DNA of 64,000 nt, taken from contig NZ_CP100763.1 in NCBI RefSeq assembly GCF_024296685.1, positions 2,852,001 to 2,916,000 of the forward strand, read 5' to 3'. Numbering within the stretch: position 1 is the stretch's first letter; the number at the start of each line of letters is the position of its first letter. A program made the translations under genes and the position numbers. The stretch is from Natrinema marinum (GTDB lineage Archaea; Halobacteriota; Halobacteria; Halobacteriales; Natrialbaceae). Shown one piece after another: positions 3,526 to 60,403 of this stretch. The notes beneath the pieces were generated by a model, which was given only the letters and a program-made list of their open reading frames with translations, had not been told where the DNA came from and ran no database searches.

Positions 3526-3617
3526 AGCGAATATATGACTAATCTTCGAGGAAAGGGCGCTGCCTTCCCGCGCCACGCCATTATAAGTGGAGTGTCGTCG
3601 ATCGTCAGCTATTCGAA

Positions 3618-3655
3618 CGGCCGAAACGACGTTCCGCCGCAGGGACAGCCGTCGG
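3618..3655 (-). repeat. Left 38-bp direct repeat (attL-like)
   Basis: This is identical to 5224-5261 over 38 bases. Read on the minus strand it encodes the end of the zinc-finger protein, DGCPCGGTSFRP, followed by F-E-stop instead of L-G-stop. Sequence to the right of this copy (3656 onward) does not match the intact gene, so homology ends at the repeat boundary. Confidence 0.8.
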
Positions 3656-3825
3656 TACACCTGATTACCCCGCTACAATCCAGGAGCCATATTGCGGCTT
3701 CAATAGTCAAAAAGAAAACATCACGGATGCCGAGAACGTCGGAAAAGTGTCACCGACGGACAGAGAACGGTCCGTAGGATCACAAATGAATCTTTCAGGG
3801 GCGTTTGGATGGACAAGCCTAGTGT

Positions 3826-4017
3826 CTATCTCCGTAAACTATCGGCTGATACGTTCAGTGCGACTACGATGCTCAGGAGAAATCCGACATAGACTCCTAC
3901 GAAGGCTGTCGAACGATATAGTTGCGCATTTCGTCCGGATGTGCCAAGTATGACCACAGACAATTGAAATGATAATAAACATAGTAGCAGTATTATTAAT
4001 CTATCTTCTCGACCCAT
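3826..4017 (-). CDS. 63-residue two-helix membrane protein, partner of the Tat-exported protein (locus A)
   Basis: This small protein has two hydrophobic segments, about residues 8-26 (LIILLLCLLSFQLSVVILG) and 37-55 (TAFVGVYVGFLLSIVVALN), joined by a polar turn (TSGRNAQLYR). It has basic residues at both ends. No known family is recognised. It begins eight bases after the stop of the exported-protein gene and could be co-transcribed with it. A TATA-like ACATAAAAC just upstream could also give it its own start. A gene of the same size and topology sits in the same relative position at 59305-59493. The sequences of the two small proteins are not obviously alike. An immunity, anchoring or export role is speculation. 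Confidence 0.65.
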   Translation of the reverse strand: MGREDRLIILLLCLLSFQLSVVILGTSGRNAQLYRSTAFVGVYVGFLLSIVVALNVSADSLRR

Positions 4018-4025
4018 TTTCCTAT

Positions 4026-4850
4026 CTATAGTTTTATGTATCTGTCACTTGGATCTTTCGGAATGGTCCATTTGTCGTTCCTTCCCAGTGGTAAAGTCAG
4101 ACCAATTCCAATTCCGTTCTTTGCACCGGTGAATGAGACTCCGTTCTGACCCAGTCCGAAAGTCCAGGTATGCGTATACTTTCCTCCAATAGTTGCTTCA
4201 GAATTTCTTTCCTTCGTTAATTCTACCTCTAGACTACCACGCATCTTGGTATCTCCTCTTGTTACACTATCGGCTTCACCATCCCCCACGCGTGCGCCAA
4301 TTGCGTTAGTCGGTGCATCAAACAAAGGTCGGTTCTGTATCGATGCAGTTGCCGAGTTTGTAGTTCCATCGCCAAACTCGTTTAGAACTATTAATGTAGG
4401 AGAATCCGGCTCAAAGCTCCATGTGCTATCCTCCCATCCTATCATTGCACCGTCCCATGGAATCGCTGCGTCTACGTCGTTAGACCGCCCATCAAGAGTC
4501 CAAGCAAGAGTGGCATGGTATAGATTATCCGATACATTCCACGCGGTAAATGTGGCGCGTGCTTCATCTCGAATCCAGACATCACTTGTCGATACTCCAC
4601 CCTTGCCATGATAACCCTCGAATGCTGATTTGTATACGTCTGACGTAGAAGCGTAGTTAATACTGTGCTTCTCGAGGAGGGAGTGAGCTACTTCCTCTTT
4701 TCCGTTTCTTAGTAGTTCTTGAACTCGTTTGTCAATCCCTATTTCCCGCGCTGCAGGAGTTGGGTCGTTCTGAGTTGCGCCTGCTGGGATAACGCTGAAT
4801 CCCGTAATTGATGCAAGTGATGCAACCGTCTGGCGTCGTGAGATCCTCAT
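4026..4850 (-). CDS. Tat-exported protein of unknown function (locus A)
   Basis: This is a 274-residue precursor. The N-terminus, MRISRRQTVASLASITGFSV followed by IPAGATQ, is a twin-arginine signal with a hydrophobic stretch and an A-x-A-like site. A helical segment follows (VQELLRNGKEEVAHSLLEKH), then a region likely rich in beta strands ending in KYTHTW, GAKNGIGIGL and IPKDPSD. The protein at 58447 shares this helix pattern, a central D(G)A-x-(I/V)G-x4-W stretch, YTHT(W/F), G-x-KNG-(I/L)G and P-x-DP-x-D, so the two are homologous. There is no cysteine in the mature part. Codon use is A/T-rich, unlike neighbours, suggesting transfer. The function is unknown; a halocin-like secreted effector is a hypothesis only. 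Confidence 0.75.
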   Translation of the reverse strand: MRISRRQTVASLASITGFSVIPAGATQNDPTPAAREIGIDKRVQELLRNGKEEVAHSLLEKHSINYASTSDVYKSAFEGYHGKGGVSTSDVWIRDEARATFTAWNVSDNLYHATLAWTLDGRSNDVDAAIPWDGAMIGWEDSTWSFEPDSPTLIVLNEFGDGTTNSATASIQNRPLFDAPTNAIGARVGDGEADSVTRGDTKMRGSLEVELTKERNSEATIGGKYTHTWTFGLGQNGVSFTGAKNGIGIGLTLPLGRNDKWTIPKDPSDRYIKL

Positions 4851-4884: not shown

Positions 4885-5214
4885 TTAACTATTTTATATA
4901 TTGTATGCTAATATAAGATGTCTGAATTAATATAGCAATATAACTATGAGACCGTTCACTACAGAATTAATAAATTCCATGGCGAGGGGAATAGCGTCAT
5001 AACCGCTATAAGCAGTGTGAATATTCCTCCTAAGCACACACTGATAATCACACCTCTGATCTCATTGAGGGAACGTACTTACAGTTAAATAGCAACAGAC
5101 GGACACACCTCGGTCTGCGATTTCAACAGCTAATTAAGAGGCGCTGCGATCACTTCCTTGGAGTCAAACAGAGCAATCGGTGTCCTCTCATGTCGTAGTA
5201 TTAACTTCTGCTGG
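4885..5214. other. Gene-less AT-rich end of the island
   Basis: About 330 bases upstream of the exported-protein gene contain no supportable reading frame. The DNA is rich in A and T (for example ATTTTATATATTGTATGCTA near 4891). The composition contrast with the zinc-finger gene to its right is sharp and fits the right edge of acquired DNA. Confidence 0.5.
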
Positions 5215-5364
5215 CTAGCCGAGCGGCCGAAACGACGTTCCGCCGCAGGGACAGCCGTCGGCACTTCCAATCGGCCGAATCTCGTCCGACGAGAACCAGA
5301 CCGCCAGCGCTCTGCCGCAGTCCGTACACCGCGCCGCGCCCTTCCGCCGTGACTGTGCTGCCAT
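5215..5364 (-). CDS. 49-residue zinc-finger protein; its 3' end is duplicated at 3618
   Basis: This short protein, MAAQSRRKGAARCTDCGRAL to the end GGTSFRPLG, has a CTDC pair and a CPC pair suited to one zinc ion. It belongs by pattern to the many small zinc-finger proteins of haloarchaea. The start at 5364 is favoured by CTTATGAG about 25 bases upstream (leaderless). Its last 12 codons lie in the 38-bp direct repeat that borders the AT-rich island, so this gene appears to be the reconstituted target gene if the island was integrated. The cellular role is unknown. Confidence 0.7.
   Translation of the reverse strand: MAAQSRRKGAARCTDCGRALAVWFSSDEIRPIGSADGCPCGGTSFRPLG
5224..5261 (-). repeat. Right 38-bp direct repeat (attR-like, inside the zinc-finger gene)
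   Basis: This matches 3618-3655 perfectly. It covers the coding region DGCPCGGTSFRP of the zinc-finger gene, leaving that gene with a complete reading frame. The neighbouring codons differ (L-G-stop here, F-E-stop in the left copy). Confidence 0.8.
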
Positions 5365-57858: not shown

Positions 57859-58104
57859 TCAGGGGATCAGCTGCTCGCCGTCGTCATCGTAGATCCGAAT
57901 CGCGTCGACGGGACAGGTTCGGGCGGCGAACTTCGCGTCGAGTTCGGCGTCTTCGGGCACCTCGCGGACGAAAACCCCGTCCGCTGTCTCCTCGCTCCCC
58001 TCGAGGACGGCCTTCCCTTTCGATTTGTCCTTCTCGAAGGCGTCCCACTCGGCGACGCACTGGAACATCCCGATACAGGTGTCCTCGTCGTACTCGACCT
58101 TCAT
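57859..58104 (-). CDS. Small ferredoxin, [3Fe-4S]-like pattern
   Basis: This 81-residue protein begins MKVEYDEDTCIGMFQCVAEW and ends FAARTCPVDAIRIYDDDGEQ plus LIP. Cysteines lie at C-x5-C (CIGMFQC) and in TCPVDAI. A four-Cys [4Fe-4S] motif would need a third cysteine in the first group; it is absent, so a [3Fe-4S] cluster is likely, as in some P450-linked ferredoxins. It probably transfers electrons to an unidentified enzyme. It converges on malate dehydrogenase, about 120 bases away. Confidence 0.85.
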   Translation of the reverse strand: MKVEYDEDTCIGMFQCVAEWDAFEKDKSKGKAVLEGSEETADGVFVREVPEDAELDAKFAARTCPVDAIRIYDDDGEQLIP

Positions 58105-58446
58105 GCGCGAGGGTTGGGTCGATCCCCGTAAATCGTTAGCGGTCGTTCGTCATCTTGACTGCCACTGGACGGGAGAACGCGGTGAACGTTCCTCGAGTTA
58201 CGATTGTCGTATGGACACTACCGATACGGATGTCGGACCCGGGGTCGAAAAGTATCAGTCGATCTCGGTAACAAAAAGGATTCGATCACGAGCCGCCATC
58301 ATCCGATATCGGGACGGTCTGCGGTTGGTGTACCGAGCGCCCCAAATTTCGGTTTGTTCTACACATATAATATCCATATTACGGTTTTCAGATTGTGAAT
58401 ATACTGACAGGGAATTAACTATAGCTGCGAGCAATAACCAGATGGA
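58105..58446. other. Transition from GC-rich DNA to AT-rich locus B
   Basis: The left part is G/C-rich and holds the ferredoxin promoter region. From about 58340 the DNA becomes A/T-rich (CTACACATATAATATCCATA, then GTGAATATACTGACAGGGAA), with several TATA-like sequences. The promoter of the exported-protein gene probably lies at AATTAACTATAG (about 58413-58424), some 27 bases before its ATG. Unlike locus A, I see no duplicated flank here. Confidence 0.45.
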
Positions 58447-59262
58447 ATGCGAGGGCGAAGAAAATTCCTGTTATCTGCAGGGTCACTGGCGACGATTAGT
58501 ACGATTGGAACAGTAAGTGCAAGTAAGCGAGATACGGAACTTTCGACTGAGAAAGTTAACAGAGAGTTCCTTTCAGGCATCACTGAAAACGGAGCACGAG
58601 GGGCAAAGCAAGCATTGGAGGATCTTGGATTGGATCCAACTGTTGAAGAAAGCAAACTGGCCAACCGTGACGTATCTGAAGACGATCAACAGGTTAGTCC
58701 GCAGTACGTCTACGGCGATCCGGAGGATACTGATTCCTCACTCGTCGTTTCTTCAAGTCCAGCGATAGGTAGCGACCCCGAAGTGTGGATGAGTGTTAGT
58801 ATGTTCCTCGAGGATCCCAAGTACACGCTTAGAAACTCGTGGTGGTGTCCCGACGCCATCGGTGTCGGGTACAATGCCAATGATTGGGCTGCTGTGGGAG
58901 AACCATCTGTCCGCGCGACTCATGACCATACAGCAAAATACACGGCTGAAGACGTCGCCGATGATGCACTTGCTGGCACCGTAGAATTGAAAGACCACTC
59001 CGACAAGCAATACGGTAGTGGCGCGAGTGACAGGCTCCCAGATGCTACCGTAGGCTTAACTGGAAAGTTCAAATTGAGAGAGGATAAGGTGCCAACCACA
59101 CTCTGGGGATCCTACACGCATACCTTCTCTCCGGATCCCACCGGGTCGATCAAGAATATCTCGGGTGGAAAAAATGGACTTGGGGTGGAAGTCAGCCTTT
59201 CTGCCGCAAAGGCGTGGAGTAAGGCTCTTCCCACGGATCCCAAGGATGACCTCCCAGACTGA
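58447..59262 (+). CDS. Tat-exported protein of unknown function (locus B), homologous to locus A
   Basis: This 271-residue precursor starts MRGRRKFLLSAGSLATISTI then GTVSASK, a twin-arginine signal (RRKFLL) with a likely cleavage after SAS. The mature part begins with a helical region (VNREFLSGITENGARGAKQA) matching the corresponding helix of the locus A protein. It continues through DAIGVGYNANDW (locus A: DGAMIGWEDSTW), GLTGKFKLRED, WGSYTHTFS, SGGKNGLGVEV and LPTDPKDDLPD. All these motifs have counterparts in the same order at locus A. One cysteine is present (WWCPDAIG). Function is unknown. Codon use is A/T-rich relative to neighbours, suggesting transfer. Confidence 0.75.
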   Translation: MRGRRKFLLSAGSLATISTIGTVSASKRDTELSTEKVNREFLSGITENGARGAKQALEDLGLDPTVEESKLANRDVSEDDQQVSPQYVYGDPEDTDSSLVVSSSPAIGSDPEVWMSVSMFLEDPKYTLRNSWWCPDAIGVGYNANDWAAVGEPSVRATHDHTAKYTAEDVADDALAGTVELKDHSDKQYGSGASDRLPDATVGLTGKFKLREDKVPTTLWGSYTHTFSPDPTGSIKNISGGKNGLGVEVSLSAAKAWSKALPTDPKDDLPD

Positions 59263-59270
59263 ATAGGCGA

Positions 59271-59283
59271 TAATATTTATACC
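59271..59283 (+). promoter_or_regulatory. TATA box for the locus B small membrane protein
   Basis: TAATATTTATACC lies nine bases after the exported-protein stop and is centred about 28 bases before the ATG at 59305. It predicts a separate, leaderless transcript for the membrane protein, so that gene could be expressed without the exported protein. Confidence 0.5.
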
Positions 59284-59304
59284 GGTCTGAATATTATTTA
59301 CGAC

Positions 59305-59493
59305 ATGGTTAACGACAGTGAATTATCCAGCAAAGCACATCTCCGTGCAATTCGTTCTACTATAGCTGCCCTAGCACTTGCAGTTCTAGCAGCCGCGCTC
59401 ATTCTTCATGATGAGCCCCTTGCCTTTCCGTTTTTGATCGCTACGATAGTTGTTCTCATCTATTCATTTCTTCCAACACTCTTGCATTCATAG
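59305..59493 (+). CDS. 62-residue two-helix membrane protein, partner of the exported protein (locus B)
   Basis: The product begins MVNDSELSSKAHLRAIRSTI and has two hydrophobic helices, about 17-35 (RSTIAALALAVLAAALILH) and 40-60 (AFPFLIATIVVLIYSFLPTL). Size, two-helix topology and position 42 bases after the exported-protein gene parallel the 63-residue protein at 3826-4017, though sequence identity is not obvious. It has its own TATA box, as expected if it must be present independently. No family is recognised. Confidence 0.62.
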   Translation: MVNDSELSSKAHLRAIRSTIAALALAVLAAALILHDEPLAFPFLIATIVVLIYSFLPTLLHS

Positions 59494-59608
59494 CACACTT
59501 TCTTTGAAAGTGAAATAATACCGCTAAGAAAATTTATCGTGCGCCCTGCGAGGACAGAAACCATAGATAAATCAATTTTTTATTATCGGTTGTCCTCTCG
59601 ACTCAAGC

Positions 59609-60403
59609 ATGGAAGAGAACGGTCCCAAATCTGCCGGATTGCGACCGGCGGACCCACTGGGACGAGCGATGCTCGCCCACCACCGCGACACGCCGGGCCG
59701 GCTGACCTATCGTGACGGCGCGGACGTACAGGACGGTTCCGTCGCCGAGTTCTACTTCTCGAGTGCGGAGTCGTGGGATCGGGAAACGATCGACCTCCTC
59801 GAGCGATTGACCGACCACGAACCGGTACTCGACGTCGGCTGTGGCGCGGGAAAGCACCTCCTGTGGTGGGCCAACCGCGGCGTCGAAGCAGTCGGCGTCG
59901 ACGTGAGTCCGAACGCCGTGCGCACGGCCCGCGAACGCGGACTCGAGGGCGTCTTCGTCGGCGACATGTTCGACCTGCCGGTCGCGACGGGCGCGTTCGG
60001 AGCGGTTCACGCCGTCGGGACGCAGATCGGGCTCGGCCGGTCGCTGGCCGGCATCCGCGCTCTGCTCGCCGAGTTCGCTCGCGTCACCGACATCGACGGG
60101 GTCGCCGTCGTCGACAACTACGACCCGACGCGGCTGGACGCGGACTTCTTCGGCTACCGCTCGGACCCCCGCGAGGGGATCGCCCATCGGTGTTTCCACC
60201 TCGAGTTCAAGCACGAGACCGCCGACGGCGAGCAGCGGCGGGAGATCGGGCGGACGCTGCAGTTCCTGCTGTGCTCGCCCGCCCGACTCCGGGAGGCGAC
60301 GATCGGAACGCCGTGGGGCGTTCGCGACGTGCTTCGAGACGACGCAAACCGAACGGACGAGGAGGCGGCTCACTACAGCACGGTGCTCGAGAAGACCAAC
60401 TGA
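59609..60403 (+). CDS. Class I SAM-dependent methyltransferase
   Basis: This 264-residue enzyme has the SAM-binding motif I VLDVGCGAGKHLLWWANRG (about 73-91), motif II VGVDVSPNAV and FGAVHAVGTQIGLG (motif IV region). The remainder (SLAGIRALLAEFARVTDIDG, then VVDNYDPTRLDADFFGYRSD) gives no clear substrate. The N-terminus includes GRAMLAHHRDTPGRL. A/T-rich CAATTTTTTATTATCGG just upstream provides a TATA box about 28 bases before the ATG. It is next to locus B but its own composition is G/C-rich. Confidence 0.86.
   Translation: MEENGPKSAGLRPADPLGRAMLAHHRDTPGRLTYRDGADVQDGSVAEFYFSSAESWDRETIDLLERLTDHEPVLDVGCGAGKHLLWWANRGVEAVGVDVSPNAVRTARERGLEGVFVGDMFDLPVATGAFGAVHAVGTQIGLGRSLAGIRALLAEFARVTDIDGVAVVDNYDPTRLDADFFGYRSDPREGIAHRCFHLEFKHETADGEQRREIGRTLQFLLCSPARLREATIGTPWGVRDVLRDDANRTDEEAAHYSTVLEKTN

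Follow-up and report, generated by a model that had tools for sequence, protein, structure and literature searches.

The number of known archaeal antagonist genes is small, and in halocin C8, the immunity part belongs to the same polypeptide as the toxin. In bacteria, orphan immunity genes of bacteriocins are kept without the toxin. A survey of archaeal toxins was reportedly published by Makarova et al. in 2019 (mBio), and the exported protein family described below may already figure in it. As for gene architecture, a comparable case is the B310/C108 toxin locus of SSV9 (Sulfolobus spindle-shaped viruses), in which protection was conferred by B310 alone but not by C108 (PMC8628083).

The locus analyzed here (locus B, Table 1) is located in the window, that is, the whole stretch of 64,000 nucleotides of Natrinema marinum chromosomal DNA under analysis. 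It comprises a gene of a putative exported protein and a gene of a small membrane protein. The sequence-only reading described locus B as a second copy of a similar gene pair (locus A) located on the opposite strand approximately 54 kb away. The same layout was indeed found at locus A (ORFs 4850–4026 and 4017–3826). The small proteins of the two loci were also said to be strongly different, and no similarity between them was detectable by sequence comparison. BLASTP analysis of the exported proteins A and B showed 25% identity across 83 C-terminal residues (E = 1e-6). GC content is 0.52 for the exported gene B, 0.48 for the exported gene A, 0.44 for the small gene B, and 0.43 for the small gene A; the value for the window is 0.65. 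The AlphaFold2 model of the small protein B contains two helices, at residues 4–34 and 40–61 (pLDDT 72).

Table 1. Positions of the features of loci A and B within the window.
Feature	Positions	Strand	Description
Exported protein B	58447..59262	+	271 aa; predicted Tat-type signal, then domain with conserved D, W and C-terminal Y-x-H ... W pattern
Predicted twin-arginine signal peptide of exported protein B	58447..58524	+	Residues 1–26, MRGRRKFLLSAGSLATISTIGTVSAS; putative cleavage site
TATA box of small gene B	59276..59281	+	TTTATA, leaderless position
Small two-helix membrane protein B	59305..59493	+	62 aa; two hydrophobic stretches
Inserted cassette B	58150..59570	.	Approximate extent; between ferredoxin and methyltransferase genes
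Ferredoxin-like gene flanking B	57859..58104	-	81 aa
SAM-dependent methyltransferase-like gene flanking B	59609..60403	+	264 aa
Exported protein A	4026..4850	-	274 aa; remote homologue of B
Small two-helix protein A	3826..4017	-	63 aa; 8 nt downstream of exported A
Direct repeat, far end of cassette A	3608..3658	-	51 bp
Matching repeat	5214..5264	-	92%; 3' end of zinc-ribbon gene, insertion site of cassette A

The junction between the ferredoxin and methyltransferase genes was examined in 18 genomes of the genus, including that of the window (G000). This site is empty in 16 of them; the full pair is present in G000, and in genome G061 the small gene is accompanied by just two dozen codons from the end of the exported gene. 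As for the A site, 12 of 13 congeners lack cassette A and have the zinc-ribbon gene directly next to the TrmB-like gene. In G000, cassette A is bordered by a 51-bp repeat (92%) of the end of the zinc-ribbon gene. Judging by these sites, A and B are separate insertions at positions where most congeners have none. The possibility that B arose by duplication of A was considered and rejected because the two pairs belong to different clades and each insertion has its own separate empty site. For the same reasons, the term "second copy" is too strong, and on this evidence, locus B is related to locus A only remotely and is not its duplicate. The border repeats of cassette A, one copy of which is the 3' end of the zinc-ribbon gene, resemble those of site-specific integration; no integrase was seen between the repeat copies (3608–3658 and 5214–5264). 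At the cassette A site of another genome (L225, G056), approximately 670 bases (1635–2308) with a transposase-like (TnpB-type) ORF, identified by eye, are present instead.

Relatives of the exported proteins were searched for in 392 Halobacteriales genomes with a profile and in 125 genomes of the taxonomic family with single-sequence queries. They were found in 68 of the 392 genomes by the profile search, whereas the single queries detected them in 14 (query B) and 15 (query A) of the 125 genomes. Two N-terminal arginines, D136, W147, Y223, H225, G243, and W257 (numbering of protein B) are invariant or almost so across the relatives. Among the 64 full-length relatives, 61 have the RR pair within their 75 N-terminal residues, and Tat models in the Pfam and NCBIfam scans match several exported members weakly; the exported protein is predicted to carry a Tat-type export signal. 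Apart from these weak matches, comparison of the exported proteins with Pfam, NCBIfam, PADLOC, and PHROGs gave no meaningful E-value, and neither an enzyme nor a known domain was detected. A search for remote homology to solved structures returned chance-level matches only, and AlphaFold2 gave no confident fold for the exported protein B (pLDDT 29 with just A and B as the alignment). The exported proteins were found to lack a hydrophobic stretch that could serve as an anchor. No exported relatives were found in the scanned viral contigs, so a viral origin of the family was rejected; a plasmid origin was rejected as well, the single plasmid match (Haloprofundus halobius) being remote. At one locus (L137, genome G259), an ORF of 269 aa located 11 nt downstream resembles a tandem second exported gene of the same kind.

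The small partner was defined as an ORF encoding two hydrophobic stretches in no more than 110 aa, located on the same strand and starting within 400 nt of the exported gene. Of the 71 exported loci with sufficient flanking sequence, 35 have such a partner downstream, as compared with 2 of 71 in each of two control windows; one of the 35 loci (L024) is probably spurious and was excluded from later counts. Among non-redundant loci, the partner is present in 30 of 60, with 2/60 and 1/60 in the controls. About half of the exported genes have no two-helix partner, and a few of these loci have longer hydrophobic ORFs in its place. Hydrophobic ORFs of 137 aa and 121 aa follow the exported gene at L104 (G288) and L113 (G310), respectively, where no two-helix partner is present. 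Exported genes of the locus-B clade at L089 and L090 (G216 and G272) have a high GC content (0.66); neither a small partner nor a remnant of one lies downstream of them, in contrast to the sister genes of these genomes.

The partners form at least seven two-helix families with no detectable mutual similarity, and partner types recur across archaeal families. The partner families follow the clades of the exported proteins, with 7 changes against a mean of 15.6 and a minimum of 11 after shuffling. Within the locus-B partner family, distances between exported proteins correlate with those between small proteins (Mantel r = 0.59, p = 0.02), although with seven pairs the power is low. This correlation is due to one near-duplicate, L107, without which r falls to 0.01 among the few pairs left. 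Allele-specific pairing had been proposed from the difference between the two small proteins. Judging by the agreement between families and clades, pairing is specific at the family level, while specificity at the allele level is not evident, and co-evolution of individual pairs is unsupported in the locus-B family.

Leaderless transcripts make up 72% of the protein-coding ones in Haloferax volcanii (PMC4983044), so a TATA box is expected at a position of approximately −30 from the start codon. The TTTATAC motif starts 29 nt before the ATG of the small gene B, and TTATAC is retained in G061. A single TATA-like motif in an A/T-rich gap may be a matter of chance. In the 25 pairs with a gap of at least 40 nt, the A/T content has a peak at −29 to −32 (0.78 vs. 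0.66 in shifted controls; 0/5000 reached it); the nine pairs with shorter gaps have no such peak. At locus A, the gap is 8 nt and contains no promoter-like site. Judging by the motif and the peak, the small gene is probably transcribed from a promoter of its own in locus B and other well-spaced pairs, as the sequence-only reading had proposed for B; separate expression does not apply to A. At one locus (L086, G183), the small gene downstream of the exported one encodes a protein resembling the WFLALIAY-type partners and lies on the other strand in convergent orientation; it must therefore be transcribed separately.

In six genomes (G061, G095, G161, G065, G098, and G281), the exported gene is deleted or broken and the small gene is intact. 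In G061, only the last codons of the exported gene are left at the B site, and the small gene shows 79% identity and a dN/dS of 0.34. In G095, the exported gene is absent in comparison with the syntenic G096. In G161, approximately 142 residues of the exported protein are lost in frame in comparison with the syntenic G137, and the small protein is 97% identical. The exported gene contains frameshifts and a stop in G065, a stop in G098, and a frameshift in G281. A broken small gene was sought at 37 loci that have an exported gene and no two-helix partner, and none was recognised. The chance of such one-sided decay (6 to 0) is approximately 0.29, the exported gene being more than four times longer. 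Because of this difference in length, six of six is not significant alone, and the weight lies on continued selection.

The locus-B small family was found in 47 of 392 genomes, in 8 of them beside an exported gene and in 39 alone. The pooled pN/pS of the solitary genes is 0.47 (p = 4e-15), which indicates purifying selection. A common neighbour of the solitary genes was sought and not found. Since the small gene outlasts the exported one and is under purifying selection when alone, it does not need an exported protein encoded next door. The solitary occurrence is consistent with orphan immunity and, to the same degree, with an independent function.

The best explanation, to which we assign even chances, is that locus B encodes a secreted antagonist and an independently made membrane immunity protein. 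Locus B would be an acquired cassette of two genes, a member of a rapidly diverging haloarchaeal family. Its first gene would encode a Tat-exported protein, most likely a halocin-like antagonist that presumably kills related archaea. The second gene would be expressed both from its own leaderless promoter and by read-through, and its product, a two-helix membrane protein, would protect the cell against the cognate exported protein, presumably by blocking it. The support for this explanation is sequence-based and consists of the export-type signal, the two-helix partner, the clade-matched families, the promoter signature, insertion into an empty site, and the small gene outliving the exported one. 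The partnerless half of the exported genes counts against it, as does the mostly solitary occurrence of the locus-B small family, which may have its own job. The disappearance of the within-family correlation once L107 is removed and the low-confidence model of the exported protein also weigh against it. Judged against Pfam, NCBIfam, PADLOC, and PHROGs, such an antagonist/immunity family is probably undescribed.

The solitary occurrence in 39 of 47 genomes, purifying selection, and the lack of a recurrent neighbour would also be expected if the small protein were a stand-alone haloarchaeal membrane protein with its own cellular role, in front of which the exported gene landed in some lineages. 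This is unlikely, since both genes form a single unit at site B and in G161/G137, and chance landing leaves unexplained why at least seven unrelated two-helix families match the exported clades. The small protein could instead be a helper of the exported one, namely, a membrane anchor, a receptor, or an export or maturation factor; the two genes are adjacent, on the same strand, and clade-matched, and some pairs are tightly spaced without the promoter signature. A helper should decay together with the exported gene, yet the small gene is intact where the latter is gone or broken and stands alone in many genomes, and at L086 it is convergent on the other strand, so we regard a helper function as quite improbable. 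The sequence-only reading had left the choice between an immunity and a receptor partner; immunity is favoured by the persistence of the small gene where the exported one has been lost and by selection on solitary genes, and a receptor or anchor fits poorly.

The locus could also function as B310/C108 of SSV9 does, with the exported toxin protecting its own producer and the linked small gene not being an immunity factor. The architecture is shared (a secreted protein of approximately 300 aa and a linked small transmembrane gene), and by analogy, the small gene of SSV9, which failed to protect, warns against the immunity reading. Such self-protection would leave the small gene outliving the exported gene unexplained, and we consider it very improbable. 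The least probable of the readings weighed is that the exported proteins are variable surface or signalling proteins rather than antagonists: neither a toxin domain nor a solved relative was detected, and variable, patchy, low-GC genes also suit surface roles, but the proteins have no hydrophobic anchor stretch, and the pattern of loss favours a pair for attack and protection.

Extending the antagonist and immunity explanation from locus B to the whole family is more tentative, its chances being somewhat below even. The family would represent a widespread group of haloarchaeal secreted toxins with immunity proteins from at least seven unrelated two-helix families, often solitary in genomes from which the toxin has been lost or was always absent. 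If this is true, approximately one in six Halobacteriales genomes would supply testable toxin/immunity pairs, many in all, with a separate and independently transcribed membrane partner, and orphan immunity could be studied in archaea.

Among the known systems, the orphan immunity genes of bacteriocins are similar in that an immunity gene occurs without a toxin, although they are bacterial. Halocin C8 is likewise a haloarchaeal secreted antimicrobial with immunity encoded alongside, but one polypeptide yields both toxin and immunity. The halocin C8 model (TIGR04449) has no match in the genome of the window and is absent from the NCBIfam scans of the exported proteins. Halocin H4 (HFX_5264) and HmHapP (HFX_0892) of Haloferax mediterranei, compared by description only, are also secreted haloarchaeal precursors, antagonistic and activated by halolysin; unlike locus B, no partner gene is described for them in the accessible parts of PMC12893001 and PMC6759562. 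The DNA of halocin H4, sought by primer sequence, was not found in the genomes and plasmids searched. The SSV9 locus, likened here by architecture, likewise encodes a secreted protein and then a small transmembrane one, the type of the latter matching the toxin allele, but it is viral, belongs to Sulfolobales, and both genes are on one transcript (PMC8628083). In the T6SS toxin-immunity pairs of Halogeometricum borinquense, a haloarchaeal toxin is tolerated only with the downstream gene; those toxins are delivered by an injection system, whereas the exported family described here has its own predicted Tat-type signal (PMC11566945).
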